From positions 1 to 59,138 of the forward strand of contig NZ_BMHH01000025.1 in NCBI RefSeq assembly GCF_014640615.1: a stretch of 59,138 bases of DNA, read 5' to 3'. Source of the stretch: Paramesorhizobium endophyticum. Lineage in GTDB: Bacteria; Pseudomonadota; Alphaproteobacteria; Rhizobiales; Rhizobiaceae. Below, piece by piece: positions 18,395 through 23,549 of this stretch. The notes under the pieces are model-generated. The model made no database searches. It saw only the letters and a program-made list of their open reading frames with translations, and was not told the DNA's origin. The number at the start of each line of letters is the position of its first letter. Position 1 is the stretch's first letter. The position numbers and the translations under genes are program-made.

Positions 18395-21300
18395 ATGAGC
18401 GGTGAGACGATCGATCGGGAGCGGCTGCTGGCCATTCTGGAATACTGGCACCGGATAGAATTCTTTATTCCGTTCGATTTGTCCGCCTGCGCCGAACCGC
18501 GGGACGGGCGTGCTCCCTTCTGGATGCATGCCGAAACGCTTGAAAATGATACAGCCTATCTGCGACGGCCGAATATCCCCGAGGGCAAGGAACTCACGGG
18601 GATAAGGCTCTTCTTCGGGGTGTTCGACAAGTCGCAGATGACGGATTCTATTCTGCGTTATTGTGCGCCGGCGAGCGGACTGGCCGCGTTCGAGGACGTG
18701 GAGCGCGGCGACCTCGAAGGCGATACATGCTTTGCCAGCCTTGATCTCGATGCCAACGGTGTTCCGCTTTTCGACCGGTTTTCCATTTCGACCTTGCCAT
18801 GGGCGCTGGGGCGTATAGCGAAGGGCGGGCTCATGGCGCTTTCGCTCGGCGCCTTTGCCGAAAGCATGAAGAAGCTGAAGGAGCTACTGGAGAATTTCAG
18901 GGCGCAGCGCCATCTCGATCGATCCGGAGAGGCGGACGGTGCAGAGGCGATCACCCCGGCGGAGATACTTGCCCTGAATGACCTCCTGCAGGACTGGGCG
19001 GGTTTCAAGCCGGAACCTGGCCGTCCGGTCGCCCTGGCTGAAATCCGGTTTCGCGAGAAGCTGGAGACATCCGTCAGGCAATTGGAGGCGCCTCAGATTA
19101 TTGACATGATCCCCGCCGAGGGCGATGAGGACGAGGAGGATGACGAGCCGGAGGTCGAGCAGGAAATAGGCATCCTCAACAGTTTCTATCTCGAGGACAT
19201 CGAAAAGGCGATTGCCTGCGTCCGTGACGGCGTCGTGCCGGAGGCCATCAGGCAATATCTGACGCCGCTCGAGGCGAATGAACGTCTCGATCTTTATTCC
19301 GATGCGGGACGCCTCGCGATACTGGAAAAGCTCCATCCGAGCCGTGTCAATCGCGGCCGGTGGCCGAGCGACCCCAGCCATGCCATGAGCCTCATGCAGC
19401 AATTCGCCATCAATGCGGCTGGCGAGCTTGGCGGCAAAGACGGCCTATTTTCTGTCAACGGGCCTCCCGGCACCGGTAAAACGACATTGCTGCGGGATGT
19501 GATCGCCGACAACATCGTCAAGCGCGCCCGCGTCCTCGCCGCGCTCCCATCGCCCCGGGACGCCTTCACGGGACGCGGCAAGAAGATGGAGTTCGCCGAC
19601 GGCGCCACGGCGACCATTTCAATCTTGAAGCCGGAATTGACCGGTTTCGAGATGGTGGTGGCGTCCTCGAACAACACGGCTGTCGAGAACATTTCCAAGG
19701 ATTTGCCGAAACGCAAGTCCATTTGGGACCTGTCGTCGGTCGATTATCTGCAACCGGTTGCCCACAAGGTCGCCGCACAAACGAAGAAAGGCGGCTTTCA
19801 ACCTTGCAAGGGGGAGGAGCAGCCTTGGGGCCTCATCTCCTGCGTCCTCGGAAATTTCGCGAACCGCAGGTCATTCGGCAACAAATTCGCCTTCAAGCCC
19901 AGGATGAATGGGGAACACACGACGTGGAAGGACGGCCATGTGTTCCAGAGCATTTACGGTTGGCTGGACAATTATGAGGGGCCATCCTTTGCCGAGGCCG
20001 TCGAAGCGTTCAGGCGCGCGGAGGCGGAGGTCGATGCCGGTATCGCGCGCCACGCACGATATGCGGATCTGTTCGGCGAAGTGGGACTACGGTCGCAAGA
20101 CGACTATTGCCGGGCGGCGTCGGCGCAAGCGAAGTCTGCCGCCGAGGCGTTGGAAACCAGCGGGCGCGCGCATGACGGCATCGGGTTTGAGCTGCAGGCG
20201 ACCGAAGCCAGGCTTTCCGGACTGAAGGAAGAGGAGCGTCTCCTCGATCGGACCAGCCCCGCATGGTGGCATCGATTGTTCCGGACCAGGGCGGGGCAGG
20301 AATACCGGGCGAGCATGGTGGAGAACGCGAAGGCGCAGCTCTCCGTCCGAGGCCGGCAGTCCCTGTTGCGCGAAACGCTGGCAAGCCATGCCGCCGAGAT
20401 GCAGCGGGCGAGCGCGCGGCTTCAGCAATGCGAAGCCGCCCTTGCCGCCCGGCAGCATGAATGGAAGCAGAAGCGGGCGGAGCTGGAGCAATTGGGGGAG
20501 GCTCTGGGAAACCCCGCAATTCCCGGGTCATTGAGCGATCTCGAAACCGACCGGTTCCAGATTTCCGGCCTGTGGCATACCGAAGCGATGGCCACCCTGC
20601 GGTCCGCTCTCTTCGAGGCTGCCTTGCGCCTGCACGCCGCATGGCTTGCCGAGGCGGGGCGCAGCGGTGGAGGTTTCCGCGGCAACATACCCGCAATCAG
20701 CAAGCTGCTTTCGGGCAATTTGCCGGTCGAAAAGGCAGCCATCGCCAGTATCTGGCAAAGCCTGTTCATGATCGTGCCCGTGATATCGACGACCTTTGCG
20801 TCCTTCACCCGCCTGTTCAACGGGGTCGAAGCAGGCGGGATCGGCTGGCTTTTCATCGATGAAGCGGGGCAGGCGGTGCCGCAGGCGGCAGTGGGCGGGC
20901 TGATGCGGGCGCGGCGCGTCATGGCCATCGGCGATCCGCTCCAGATCGAGCCCGTCTTCACCCTGCCGGCGGCCTTCATCAAGGCGCTTGGCGAACTCTC
21001 GCCCCACACGGCCGGCGGAGATTACTCACCGGCGCGCACCTCGGTCCAGACCCTTGCCGACGCCGCCAACCGCTTCGGCACGGCGGTGGCTACCGACGCA
21101 GACGACGATCCACTTTGGATCGGCAGCCCCTTGCGCGTGCATCGCCGCTGCATCGACCCGATGTTCAGCCTCGCCAACCGGATCGCCTATCACGGCAAGA
21201 TGGTGTTCGCGGCGAGGGGACCTTCAGAGGATTTCGCGCCACTTCACGACAGCGCCTGGATTGATATCCGCGGGCGGGTTACGGGCAAGCAGACGGTGCG

Positions 21301-21751
21301 GGAACAGGTGGAGTTCATGGTGCGCGTCCTCCTTGCGACTTACCGCAGCGAGGGCCGTCTGCCGGGCGTCTATATCATTTCCCCTTTCAAGGAAACCAAG
21401 GCTGCCCTCAGGCAGGCGATTGAAAAGGCGTACTGGATCAATCCAGACGGTCGCCACGAGCAACCGAAGGGGCTGGATGATTGGTTGAAAAACCGGATCG
21501 GCACGGTCCACACCTTCCAGGGCAAGGAAGAAGACACCGTCTTCATGGTTCTGGGAACCGATGCCGAGCACCGCGGCGCCGCCGTCTGGGCCGCATCGAA
21601 GCCGAACCTGCTTAACGTCGCGGCGACGCGGGCGCGCTACCGGCTGTTCATCATCGGCGACAGCACGCTCTGGAGCGGCCTGCCCTATTTCAGCGACGCC
21701 GCCGACATGCTGCCGGTTGTGCAGGAGGAGGATTTTCTGGCGCGGCTATGA
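18395..21751 (+). CDS. Large SF1 (UPF1/DNA2-like) helicase with long N-terminal domain
   Basis: An 1118-residue protein. About 340 N-terminal residues match no domain I can name and contain an acidic patch (EGDEDEEDDEPEVEQE, about 244-260). The helicase core then has Walker A GPPGTGKTTL (about 355), the motif II box FIDEAGQAVPQA (about 821), motif III GDPLQIEPV, the segment SPLRVHRRCIDPMF, and motifs V/VI (VHTFQGKEEDTVFMV; NVAATRARYRLFIIGD, about 1073-1088). A roughly 430-residue insert between motifs I and II contains a likely coiled coil (about 580-700). No nuclease or PLD domain follows. Role unknown; such COG1112-type helicases occur in nucleic-acid maintenance and in defence loci. Confidence 0.85.
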   Translation: MSGETIDRERLLAILEYWHRIEFFIPFDLSACAEPRDGRAPFWMHAETLENDTAYLRRPNIPEGKELTGIRLFFGVFDKSQMTDSILRYCAPASGLAAFEDVERGDLEGDTCFASLDLDANGVPLFDRFSISTLPWALGRIAKGGLMALSLGAFAESMKKLKELLENFRAQRHLDRSGEADGAEAITPAEILALNDLLQDWAGFKPEPGRPVALAEIRFREKLETSVRQLEAPQIIDMIPAEGDEDEEDDEPEVEQEIGILNSFYLEDIEKAIACVRDGVVPEAIRQYLTPLEANERLDLYSDAGRLAILEKLHPSRVNRGRWPSDPSHAMSLMQQFAINAAGELGGKDGLFSVNGPPGTGKTTLLRDVIADNIVKRARVLAALPSPRDAFTGRGKKMEFADGATATISILKPELTGFEMVVASSNNTAVENISKDLPKRKSIWDLSSVDYLQPVAHKVAAQTKKGGFQPCKGEEQPWGLISCVLGNFANRRSFGNKFAFKPRMNGEHTTWKDGHVFQSIYGWLDNYEGPSFAEAVEAFRRAEAEVDAGIARHARYADLFGEVGLRSQDDYCRAASAQAKSAAEALETSGRAHDGIGFELQATEARLSGLKEEERLLDRTSPAWWHRLFRTRAGQEYRASMVENAKAQLSVRGRQSLLRETLASHAAEMQRASARLQQCEAALAARQHEWKQKRAELEQLGEALGNPAIPGSLSDLETDRFQISGLWHTEAMATLRSALFEAALRLHAAWLAEAGRSGGGFRGNIPAISKLLSGNLPVEKAAIASIWQSLFMIVPVISTTFASFTRLFNGVEAGGIGWLFIDEAGQAVPQAAVGGLMRARRVMAIGDPLQIEPVFTLPAAFIKALGELSPHTAGGDYSPARTSVQTLADAANRFGTAVATDADDDPLWIGSPLRVHRRCIDPMFSLANRIAYHGKMVFAARGPSEDFAPLHDSAWIDIRGRVTGKQTVREQVEFMVRVLLATYRSEGRLPGVYIISPFKETKAALRQAIEKAYWINPDGRHEQPKGLDDWLKNRIGTVHTFQGKEEDTVFMVLGTDAEHRGAAVWAASKPNLLNVAATRARYRLFIIGDSTLWSGLPYFSDAADMLPVVQEEDFLARL

Positions 21752-22088: not shown

Positions 22089-22243
22089 GCCCCTCACCCT
22101 TACCCTCTCCCCGCACGCGGGGCGAGGGGGACATCCGCGTTGCTGCCTCTCCCTTGTTCCCTGCACCTGGCAGAAAGATTAGGCGAGAACGGTCGTGTCC
22201 CCCTCTCCCCGTAAATCACGGGGAGAGGGTAAGGGTGAGGGGC
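22089..22243. repeat. R3 element (CCTCACCCTTACCCTCTCCCCG arms)
   Basis: The arms GCCCCTCACCCTTACCCTC and GAGGGTAAGGGTGAGGGGC are about 155 bp apart, with inner sequence TGCACCTGGCAGAAAGA shared, in inverted form, with the copy at 48787-48940. Confidence 0.9.
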
Positions 22244-22261
22244 TATCCATGACATTCCAGC

Positions 22262-22325: not shown

Positions 22326-22706
22326 TCAGATTTTGACTGTGAAATCCCGAAAGAAAGCCGCCGCGCCGTCCTCATCGATCTCACCGGCGGCAACCATGGT
22401 GATGAGGAGGATCACATCCTCATTGGTCGCTTCCAGGCTCAGCCCGTTGAAATAAAGGAAAAGATCGGCTGCGGCAAAACCGGTCCGCTTGTTGCCGTCA
22501 ATGAAGGGATGGTTTTTTACGATCTTATAAAGATAGGCTGCGGCGAGTTCATAAAGGTCCGGCGCTTCATAAGCATGCTTGTTCAGCGGCCTGCCTAGTG
22601 CGGATTCGAGCGCATCTTCGTCCCGCAAGCCAGCTGCGCCGCCGTGGAGGCGCAACTGCTCGTTATGCATAGCCTCCACGAACTCCCGCGAGTGGAATTC
22701 GATCAT
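22326..22706 (-). CDS. doc: Doc-type toxin (Fic fold, death-on-curing family)
   Basis: A 126-residue Fic/Doc protein. Doc toxins phosphorylate EF-Tu and stop translation. The motif HPFIDGNKRTGF (residues 66-77) carries the catalytic His, the Asp and the GNKR phosphate-binding residues, so it looks intact. The N-terminus LRDEDALESALGRP is typical of Doc. The start overlaps the antitoxin stop by ATGA, giving coupled translation as third gene of the operon. Confidence 0.93.
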   Translation of the reverse strand: MIEFHSREFVEAMHNEQLRLHGGAAGLRDEDALESALGRPLNKHAYEAPDLYELAAAYLYKIVKNHPFIDGNKRTGFAAADLFLYFNGLSLEATNEDVILLITMVAAGEIDEDGAAAFFRDFTVKI

Positions 22707-22933
22707 TTGGCGAGAACGCGATAGGCTGCCTCGTATTTCTTCATGCGCTCGCGGGCGATCTGCATTTTCTTTACGAATTCTTCCGGATTTTCCGTGAGCG
22801 GGCGCAGCTTCAGCCCGTCGGCCTCCTCGATGAGAAGCACCGTGTCGCCAGCATGGATATTATGCCGGTCGAGCACTTCCTTCGGCAGGATAACACCTTC
22901 CGAATTGCCGATTTTGCGAACAGTAAGGTTCAT
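22703..22933 (-). CDS. AbrB/MazE-type antitoxin for Doc
   Basis: A 76-residue antitoxin. Residues 1-48 form an AbrB/SpoVT swapped-hairpin DNA-binding domain (RKIGNSEGVILPKEVLD ... HAGDTVLLIEEADGLKL). Residues about 50-76 (PEEFVKKMQIARERMKKYEA) are the predicted toxin-binding helix. It overlaps the downstream doc start and the upstream 39-codon gene stop, each by ATGA. Confidence 0.9.
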   Translation of the reverse strand: MNLTVRKIGNSEGVILPKEVLDRHNIHAGDTVLLIEEADGLKLRPLTENPEEFVKKMQIARERMKKYEAAYRVLAK

Positions 22934-23049
22934 GGCGATGTCCCCGTTTCGGCAAGCTTTTGCAGTGCGGCCCTGTATTGGTCCATGACCTCACGCGCGG
23001 CCTGCATCTGCCGCTCGAAATCATCGGGGCGTTTCAGGGCAGCGACCAT
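22930..23049 (-). CDS. 39-residue antitoxin-tail peptide, first gene of the Doc operon
   Basis: A small gene encoding MVAALKRPDDFERQMQAARE followed by VMDQYRAALQKLAETGTSP. It aligns without gaps to the antitoxin's C-terminal tail (P-E/D-E/D-F, MQ.ARE.M..Y.AA, LA-K/E) but lacks the DNA-binding domain. Support for translation: the RBS GTGAGG lies five to six bases before the ATG, the TGA overlaps the antitoxin ATG, and an operator-like palindrome sits just upstream. It probably encodes a stand-alone toxin-binding segment; a decayed duplicated antitoxin is the alternative. Confidence 0.65.
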   Translation of the reverse strand: MVAALKRPDDFERQMQAAREVMDQYRAALQKLAETGTSP

Positions 23050-23062
23050 GTCGACCTCACTT

Positions 23063-23082
23063 GTTATAACGCATGATATAAC
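23063..23082. promoter_or_regulatory. Operator-like palindrome of the Doc operon
   Basis: GTTATA and TATAAC, eight bases apart, are centred 14-33 bases upstream of the 39-codon gene. AbrB-type antitoxins commonly autoregulate at such AT-rich palindromes. The site also overlaps a plausible -10 region. Confidence 0.55.
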
Positions 23083-23099
23083 ATGGGAAGCGGCAGGTT

Positions 23100-23510
23100 T
23101 CAATCGTTGGTATCATTCCCCGGCAACCCCTCGAAAGCCTTCGCCGCCCAAGGCGCCGCCGAGCGGCACCAGATCTGCCGCTTCGGTGCGAATTCCCGGC
23201 GCTGGTCGATGCTGCCCCAGCGGATGCCCCAGGGCGCGTTTTCGGTGTCCTCGCCGCTGGTGAAGAGGGGCGAGCCGCACTCCGGACAGAAATATTGCAA
23301 GCGTTTTTTCCCGCTTGTCCCCGTCTTCAGATAAACCTTGGGCGCGTTGCCGGTCAGCCGGATGCCGCCGGGAGAGGCTCGCACCGTTACGCGATAGGGC
23401 GACCCGGTCAGCCGCTGGCAATCGGTGCAATGGCAGATGGTGATCCGCTCCGGATCGATCTCCGCCTCATAAGTGACATGCCCGCAATGGCATTGCCCAG
23501 TAATTTTCAT
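23100..23510 (-). CDS. GFA/CENP-V family zinc protein
   Basis: A 136-residue protein of the glutathione-dependent formaldehyde-activating enzyme (GFA/CENP-V) fold. Zinc ligands are visible in CHCGHVTYEA (about residues 6-8), CHCTDCQR (about 27-32) and CPECGSPLF (about 77-80). Whether it acts on S-hydroxymethylglutathione is unproven; many members have unknown substrates. The start at 23510 is chosen because AAAGG lies eight bases upstream; an in-frame GTG three codons earlier is less likely. Confidence 0.88.
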   Translation of the reverse strand: MKITGQCHCGHVTYEAEIDPERITICHCTDCQRLTGSPYRVTVRASPGGIRLTGNAPKVYLKTGTSGKKRLQYFCPECGSPLFTSGEDTENAPWGIRWGSIDQRREFAPKRQIWCRSAAPWAAKAFEGLPGNDTND

Positions 23511-23549
23511 CGTCGGCACCTTTCAGGACGCGCTGCTGCGGGAGCCCGA

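Follow-up and report, generated by a model that had tools for sequence, protein, structure and literature searches.

The window, by which we mean the whole 59,138-nucleotide stretch of Paramesorhizobium endophyticum DNA analysed here, carries an AbrB-Doc toxin-antitoxin operon that opens with a gene of only 39 codons. From which antitoxin does this small gene come, how did it reach the front of the operon, and what could a bare antitoxin tail do there?

Layout of the operon

On the minus strand, the operator (23083-23062) is followed by a ribosome-binding site (RBS), the 39-codon gene, an AbrB-type antitoxin and Doc. The sequence confirms this layout, which the earlier note had described. The features are:

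22326..22706, minus strand: Doc toxin of clade A, 126 residues, motif HPFIDGNKR (TIGR01550; clade from Doc clustering)
22703..22933, minus strand: AbrB-type antitoxin, 76 residues (TIGR02609; match to PDB 9VZC chain B)
22706..22789, minus strand: the antitoxin's last 28 codons, its type A Doc-binding tail (profile scores A 68.5 bits, B 12.0 bits)
22930..23049, minus strand: orphan tail gene, 39 residues (open reading frame and tail profile; type B 60.2 bits, type A 26.8 bits)
22948..23037, minus strand: small-gene segment matching the type B antitoxin, L..DD.FERQM...LAE (aligned at the DNA level to G004 and G005)
22934..22947, minus strand: junction stretch 3' of the B tail, containing the type A antitoxin's SD-like GGGG (SD duplex -8.3 kcal/mol)
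23055..23060, minus strand: GTGAGG ribosome-binding site of the small gene (duplex -8.6 kcal/mol)
23062..23083, no strand assigned: palindromic operator TGTTATATCATGCGTTATAACA, TGTTATA-8-TATAACA, 22 bp

Both junctions are ATGA overlaps, at 22930-22933 between the small gene and the antitoxin and at 22703-22706 between the antitoxin and Doc. The small gene has an RBS of its own (GTGAGG, 23060-23055), also as described before, with a duplex energy of -8.6 kcal/mol against a median of -6.5 kcal/mol for the antitoxins of the census described below (n = 53). A promoter scan of the operon region found none. The antitoxin scores 79.7 bits on TIGR02609 (doc_partner; curated cut-off 55.9) and the toxin 76 bits on TIGR01550 (curated cut-off 38.65), and by these family matches the two-gene core belongs with the ordinary type II toxin-antitoxin pairs of the AbrB-Doc kind. 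The toxin carries the Doc-type Fic motif as HPFIDGNKR. This Doc, of type A, is the single one found in the window's genome (G000), which has an assembly label completeness of 99.89%.

Three neighbouring features were recorded alongside the operon. A GFA-family protein (PF04828, E 2.5e-31) is encoded at 23100-23519 on the minus strand, directly before the operator; a GFA-like gene lies at the matching place in G005 and G002, and the ORF lists of G003 and G004 show none. In the gap that separates the Doc gene from the following ORF, at 22090-22245, a GC-rich long inverted repeat was seen by eye in two copies (CCCCTCACCCTTACCCTCTCCCCG ... GGGGAGAGGGTAAGGGTGAGGGG), REP-like in appearance. At 18395-21751 on the plus strand, convergent with the Doc operon, lies an ORF of 1118 residues with GPPGTGKTTLL that looks helicase-like by eye.

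The small gene encodes an antitoxin tail

The 39-residue gene is confirmed as real, with an intact frame and its own RBS. A profile of antitoxin tails, searched against the upstream stretches of 77 loci and the window (78 sequences; L050, L079 and L080, 3 of the 81 comprising 80 loci and the window, had no recognised antitoxin and were left out), picks the small ORF at E 2e-12, and the same profile found nothing below E 2.2 among 13,235 ORFs of the reversed census sequences; the small ORF is therefore not a product of chance. Its peptide matches positions 41-73 only of the 74 in TIGR02609 (E 4.6e-4; 20.5 bits, below the cut-off of 55.9). The AbrB DNA-binding domain is absent from the peptide, Pfam MazE gives no match, and scans of Pfam and NCBIfam return no DNA-binding family above cut-off, the one weak Pfam match being AraC_binding_2 (E 0.083, 13 bits against a cut-off of 27). 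The claim of a separate, promoter-proximal gene that carries the Doc-binding helix alone, with no DNA-binding domain, thus stands, and the composition of the gene can be regarded as established at the sequence level.

The structural role of this segment can be read from an E. faecalis antitoxin-Doc complex, PDB 9VZC (PMC13034048), which the window's antitoxin matches in chain B (E 0.002, the aligned region including the tail) and the window's Doc matches in chain A (E 3.5e-8). In that report, the antitoxin is resolved at residues 52-79 only, as a bent helix in the Doc cleft, with residues 54-64 at the Doc-Doc contact and residues 65-79 forming the main binding part; its authors favour neutralisation through Doc dimerisation rather than through covering of the active site, and describe the DNA-binding part of their antitoxin as divergent from canonical AbrB (PMC13034048). 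The report also describes half-length helix peptides that were tried against the antitoxin-Doc pair, not as antidotes (PMC13034048). This solved complex supports the earlier idea that the C-terminal antitoxin tail holds Doc, and by alignment the small gene corresponds to this Doc-binding segment of the antitoxin.

The tail belongs to a rival antitoxin type

We typed tails by the Doc proteins that they accompany. Eighty Doc loci of public genomes and the site census yielded 128 antitoxin-Doc pairs, 124 of them distinct; length filters kept 75 of the 80 Doc loci. Clustering on Doc alone, with the clade split applied only to the 75-member cluster that contains the window, gave four clades, A (n = 29, including the window), B (n = 27), C (n = 9) and D (n = 10); Doc identity averages 71-74% inside the clades and 57% for A against B. 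One tail profile per Doc clade was then built from the last 28 antitoxin residues. In leave-one-out tests the tail profile predicts the Doc clade in 74 of 75 cases, again in 74 of 75 when near copies are also excluded, in 73 of 75 when tails with at least 22 of 28 identities are excluded, and in 61 of 67 under the strictest exclusion, which left 8 with no possible test. Every miss was between B and D, and A and B were not confused in any leave-out test. Tail and Doc are co-inherited and a match of types would therefore arise by descent alone; tail type may also reflect binding specificity for a Doc of like type.

On these profiles the small peptide scores 60.2 bits as B, 42.5 as D, 26.8 as A and 26.4 as C, and the exclusion of its own genus and near copies leaves the result unaltered in kind (B 59.9, A 26.7). 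The tail of the neighbouring antitoxin gives 68.5 bits as A and 12.0 as B. In a direct comparison with the B antitoxin of G005, from the same genus, the small gene agrees at 20 of 24 residues and 62 of 72 bases, against 12 of 24 residues and 43 of 72 bases for its own neighbour's tail (the G090 row was out of register and was left out of this comparison). On its profile scores, then, the small gene is the tail of a rival AbrB antitoxin: it is of type B, and the Doc of its operon is of type A. The earlier note had taken it for a copy of its own antitoxin's tail; the two do align, at 41% identity, and tails of another antitoxin type are far closer. Duplication of the operon's own tail is ruled out by 33 bits in favour of type B.

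Origin of the small gene at the site

Two genomes of the same genus, G004 and G005, have an AbrB-Doc pair of type B in the same chromosomal place, downstream of a methylmalonyl-CoA mutase and a transporter gene that we take to be CorA-like. The RBS and start region of the small gene, GAGGTCGA, is common to G004, where its position is that of the B antitoxin's start. After the start, the small gene consists of codons preceding and within the B tail, the intervening AbrB domain being missing in frame. The 22-bp operator is found at 22 of 22 bases before the type B antitoxin of G004; it also lies, at 21 of 22 bases, before the type A antitoxin of G001, and since the latter differs by one base only, the operator is uninformative on type B versus type A.

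Because G004 and G005 have the full antitoxin that it shortens, the small gene is a remnant by origin. Type B Doc occupies the same site in 27 of 101 genomes, including two of the window's genus, and in ten genera the 4 kb examined hold Docs of more than one clade, which establishes that Doc types are mixed at this site and suggests that replacement there is common. From these alignments, the simplest history would be that a resident B antitoxin lost its AbrB domain and that a type A pair took over the remainder of the operon.

The same history admits a reading in which the peptide does nothing: allele replacement truncated the B antitoxin, and what remained in frame persists only because it is young and harmless. 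Its recent origin from the genus's own B antitoxin (62 of 72 bases) is consistent with this neutral scar, as are the changes on the small gene's branch, 3 nonsynonymous and 3 synonymous only, which mark a young copy and are few enough to suit constraint or neutrality alike. The relatives that bear on it are considered below.

Extra tails in relatives

The census comprised the window and, of 350 genomes with a mutase match, the other 100 that matched best; the stretches of G276, G237 and G059 were shortened by contig ends. With the tail profile, an extra tail before a complete pair was found in 4 of the 101 genomes: the window, G067, G201 and G041. In the last three the extra tail is fused in frame with the antitoxin, and the window is the sole separate-gene case found. 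The search of relatives suggested earlier thus recovers the extra tail, and the separate gene in the window only.

All four extra tails score best as B, whereas the resident Doc is of type A in three and of type C in one. No extra tail accompanies any of the 27 type B pairs of the census, and in all four cases the extra tail differs in type from the resident pair. This distribution bears on the proposal that the peptide neutralises the Doc of its own operon, altering the balance of toxin to antitoxin with no extra repressor. That proposal can draw on the shared operon with its ATGA coupling and on the 26.8 bits that the peptide retains on the type A tail profile. Against it, the peptide scores 33 bits better as B, A and B were never confused in leave-out tests, and extra tails are absent from type B pairs (0 of 27) and never of the resident's type (0 of 4). 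We consider the proposal very improbable, and the added neutralisation of the operon's own Doc goes unsupported, as a type B tail sits beside a type A Doc. In G067, a second Doc was considered as the tail's cognate and rejected, being a distant Doc with no adjoining AbrB-type antitoxin in the available stretch.

A single ancestral extra tail in all four genomes was likewise rejected. The window's tail agrees with its genus's B antitoxin at 62 of 72 bases and with the other extra tails at 42-47 of 72, and therefore the window's extra tail, at least, arose separately. The four extra tails represent at most three independent events, and one pair allows a selection test. This pair, G201 and G041, belongs to one genus and has the extra tail in common beside differing Doc types (A and C). 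Between the two, the extra tail differs at 5, 5 and 20 sites at codon positions 1, 2 and 3, with a dN/dS of 0.087 (40 codons, Fisher p 2.4e-7); restricted to the 24 tail codons it is 0.095 (p 2.5e-4), and for 40 codons of their AbrB domain 0.14. Purifying selection on the extra tail of this genus is strong. G137, the third genome here, carries a decayed tail remnant. Codon-level selection, which the earlier note had raised, is therefore found in the related genus (dN/dS 0.087), and the window's own copy is young, with its 3 nonsynonymous and 3 synonymous changes. Likewise, the suspicion of a decayed remnant holds for the gene's origin, given the full antitoxin in G004 and G005, and does not extend to the conserved extra tail of the related genus.

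The fused forms also inform the role of translation. If the small gene were a translated leader, with termination and reinitiation at the ATGA setting antitoxin output, the peptide itself would be irrelevant. The overlap and the good RBS (-8.6 kcal/mol) would suit such a leader, but the antitoxin has an SD-like site of its own (-8.3 kcal/mol), and three relatives carry the tail as an in-frame fusion, with conservation at the amino-acid level in the two that can be compared. A leader is, accordingly, an improbable account. The RBSs of the fused N-terminal tails are weak (-3.1, -3.1 and +0.7 kcal/mol). Modelled by AlphaFold2, the fused antitoxin (L012, 116 residues) has a helix at both ends; the model is weak in confidence (mean pLDDT 70, tails 53-71).

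Toxin-less two-tail proteins and split remnants

At the same site, some genomes encode a protein of 61-67 residues that consists of two tail-like halves, with neither an AbrB domain nor a Doc. Such two-tail proteins occur in 12 of 394 family genomes (11 at E 2.6e-20 or better, and the damaged G223). Nine of the 12 genes are intact (G035, G338, G253, G135, G199, G090, G168, G220 and G276) and three are damaged, G038 having no usual start codon and G223 and G268 being frameshifted. Eleven lie downstream of the mutase, and the G276 copy is at a contig edge. No match to TIGR01550 at E 1e-5 was found in 11 of the 12 genomes; a Doc-family protein of G276 (295-residue frame) was considered as the relevant Doc and set aside as of another kind. 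A search for two-tail proteins (E 1e-8) in 397 genomes of the order, same-family ones included, returned the window itself only. Five two-tail proteins were scanned; they have no Pfam or NCBIfam model of their own, and two match TIGR02609 below cut-off.

In G090 the first half of the protein scores best as B (33.3 bits) and the second best as A (45.3 bits), and G220 follows the same order (26.2 and 44.8 bits). These two proteins correspond to the window's two tails minus the AbrB domain between them and minus the toxin behind. In the other two-tail proteins scored the second half is not typable, and in G338 (38.2 against 31.8 bits) and G035 (33.8 against 32.9 bits) the first half scores better as A than as B.

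Codon comparisons indicate conservation in most of the solo two-tail pairs compared. Within genera g31 and g34, five of six pairs have dN/dS values of 0.25 to 0.41 (Fisher p 0.0001 to 0.006), the sixth, G135/G199, being indistinguishable from neutral (0.66, p 0.32). For the three pairs among G168, G090 and G220, synonymous sites are saturated, with p of 4.1e-5 or less.

A related state is seen in G158 and G272 (L211 and L195, of one genus), which have no Doc at the site and keep a type B tail behind an AbrB domain damaged by an altered motif or an internal stop. Here the tails differ at 12 of 15 synonymous and 9 of 54 nonsynonymous sites (Sd and Nd; p 9e-6), and the AbrB remnants, over 30 codons, have a dN/dS of 0.39 that is not significant (p 0.14). 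The converse, an AbrB half with no tail, was found in 2 of the 101 genomes. In the genus of G067, G377 and G152 (L159 and L163) hold remnants that consist of an AbrB half and lack both a tail and a Doc at the site.

Counted over the census, split systems comprise 4 extra tails and 11 solo loci (3 damaged) against 2 tail-less AbrB halves. These counts weigh on the neutral scar. Decayed copies in relatives (G137, G223 and G268) speak for it, but extra B tails are intact in two other lineages, one of them strongly constrained, and among the split systems the tail lacking an AbrB domain is the usual survivor (4 + 11 against 2). We therefore regard the scar as rather unlikely, though it is the main rival for the window's copy itself.

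A proposed anti-addiction antidote

With a probability of roughly 0.55, we favour a different explanation, in which the small gene is the remnant of a B antitoxin whose DNA-binding domain was lost in frame, a type A pair lies behind it, and the peptide immunises the cell against type B Doc. A resident type B AbrB antitoxin would have lost its DNA-binding domain in frame, and a type A AbrB-Doc pair would then have taken the site behind the shortened gene. The helical peptide would bind Doc of type B instead of the type A Doc encoded in its operon and, having no AbrB domain, would leave the operator untouched. The benefit might arise at the swap itself, when the labile antitoxin is gone and residual type B Doc, which would otherwise kill the recombinant, is cancelled; or it might lie in immunity to type B Doc met later through exchange with relatives that carry it at this site. 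Fused N-terminal B tails and solo two-tail proteins could be older, settled forms of the same process. Binding, neutralisation, benefit and the order of events are inferred.

An anti-addiction role would fit the observation that extra tails are never of the resident's type, the first place of the tail after the operator and the persistence of related tails where Doc is gone. The toxin that the tail matches, type B Doc, is present in relatives and was not found in the window's genome. Among plasmid records there was no match of at least 60% identity to type A or type B Doc, the best being 59.2% to type B Doc in a 4.6-Mb Shinella record, with a mean of 57% between clades A and B; this best match is no closer than the clades are to each other, and a threat from plasmids, on which the reading does not depend, thus finds no support. 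All phage proteins that matched the Doc of the window fell below 60% identity.

Most likely, extra tails and two-tail proteins in general are antidotes to addiction, retained as one Doc system gives way to another, and related bacteria probably keep fused or stand-alone two-tail forms as immunity to a toxin that they no longer carry. More tentatively, and with somewhat less than even odds, replaced antitoxins in bacteria of this family may be trimmed to tails that act like a vaccine, kept first as separate genes, then fused, and finally as a toxin-free, two-type two-tail protein that immunises against more than one Doc.

One site displays a toxin-type swap, the leftover tail, its type and, in a related genus, its conservation, and the idea of anti-addiction can therefore be put to a direct test with two Docs and a 39-residue peptide. 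Two-tail proteins of 61-67 residues could be general Doc inhibitors, and toxin-antitoxin surveys that require a DNA-binding domain or a nearby toxin would be expected to miss them.

Comparison with known systems

In the open-licence papers searched we found no description of a tail-only antitoxin gene, of a rival-type tail in one operon or of a two-tail protein. Three-component systems of the PaaR type have a DNA-binding regulator as their third protein, whereas the window's third protein belongs to no DNA-binding family above cut-off. SpoIISABC (PMC4526809) and PaaR-PaaA-ParE (PMC7167474) resemble the window in having a third small gene in the operon. SpoIISC is described there as a second antitoxin that binds and cancels the toxin of its own system (PMC4526809), whereas the window's third gene matches a rival toxin type.

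The two-gene core is that of an AbrB/MazE-type antitoxin with Doc (TIGR02609), of which TasA-TasB is a described relative (PMC1626090); the core has the usual AbrB antitoxin with its C-terminal tail, Doc and palindromic operator, and the window adds a promoter-proximal gene with only another type's antitoxin tail. The 9VZC system is like the window in both protein sequences and in the C-terminal helix that inserts in Doc; the available account of it has a full-length antitoxin of one type and describes no separate tail gene, in contrast to the extra tail gene here.

For the proposed role, the closest precedent is the anti-addiction described for the chromosomal ccd of Erwinia chrysanthemi, in which a resident antitoxin cancels a related foreign toxin (PMC2654758, PMC7354431). 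That system is a complete toxin-antitoxin pair, whereas here it would be a bare tail, single or doubled, with no DNA-binding domain. Orphan antitoxins (PMC7354431) are toxin-less too, and that review offers remnant or anti-addiction readings for them also, while holding that anti-addiction as their common use remains to be shown. Compared with the orphans described there, the tails reported here allow the type of the missing toxin to be read, have lost the DNA-binding domain and, in relatives, show a measured constraint.
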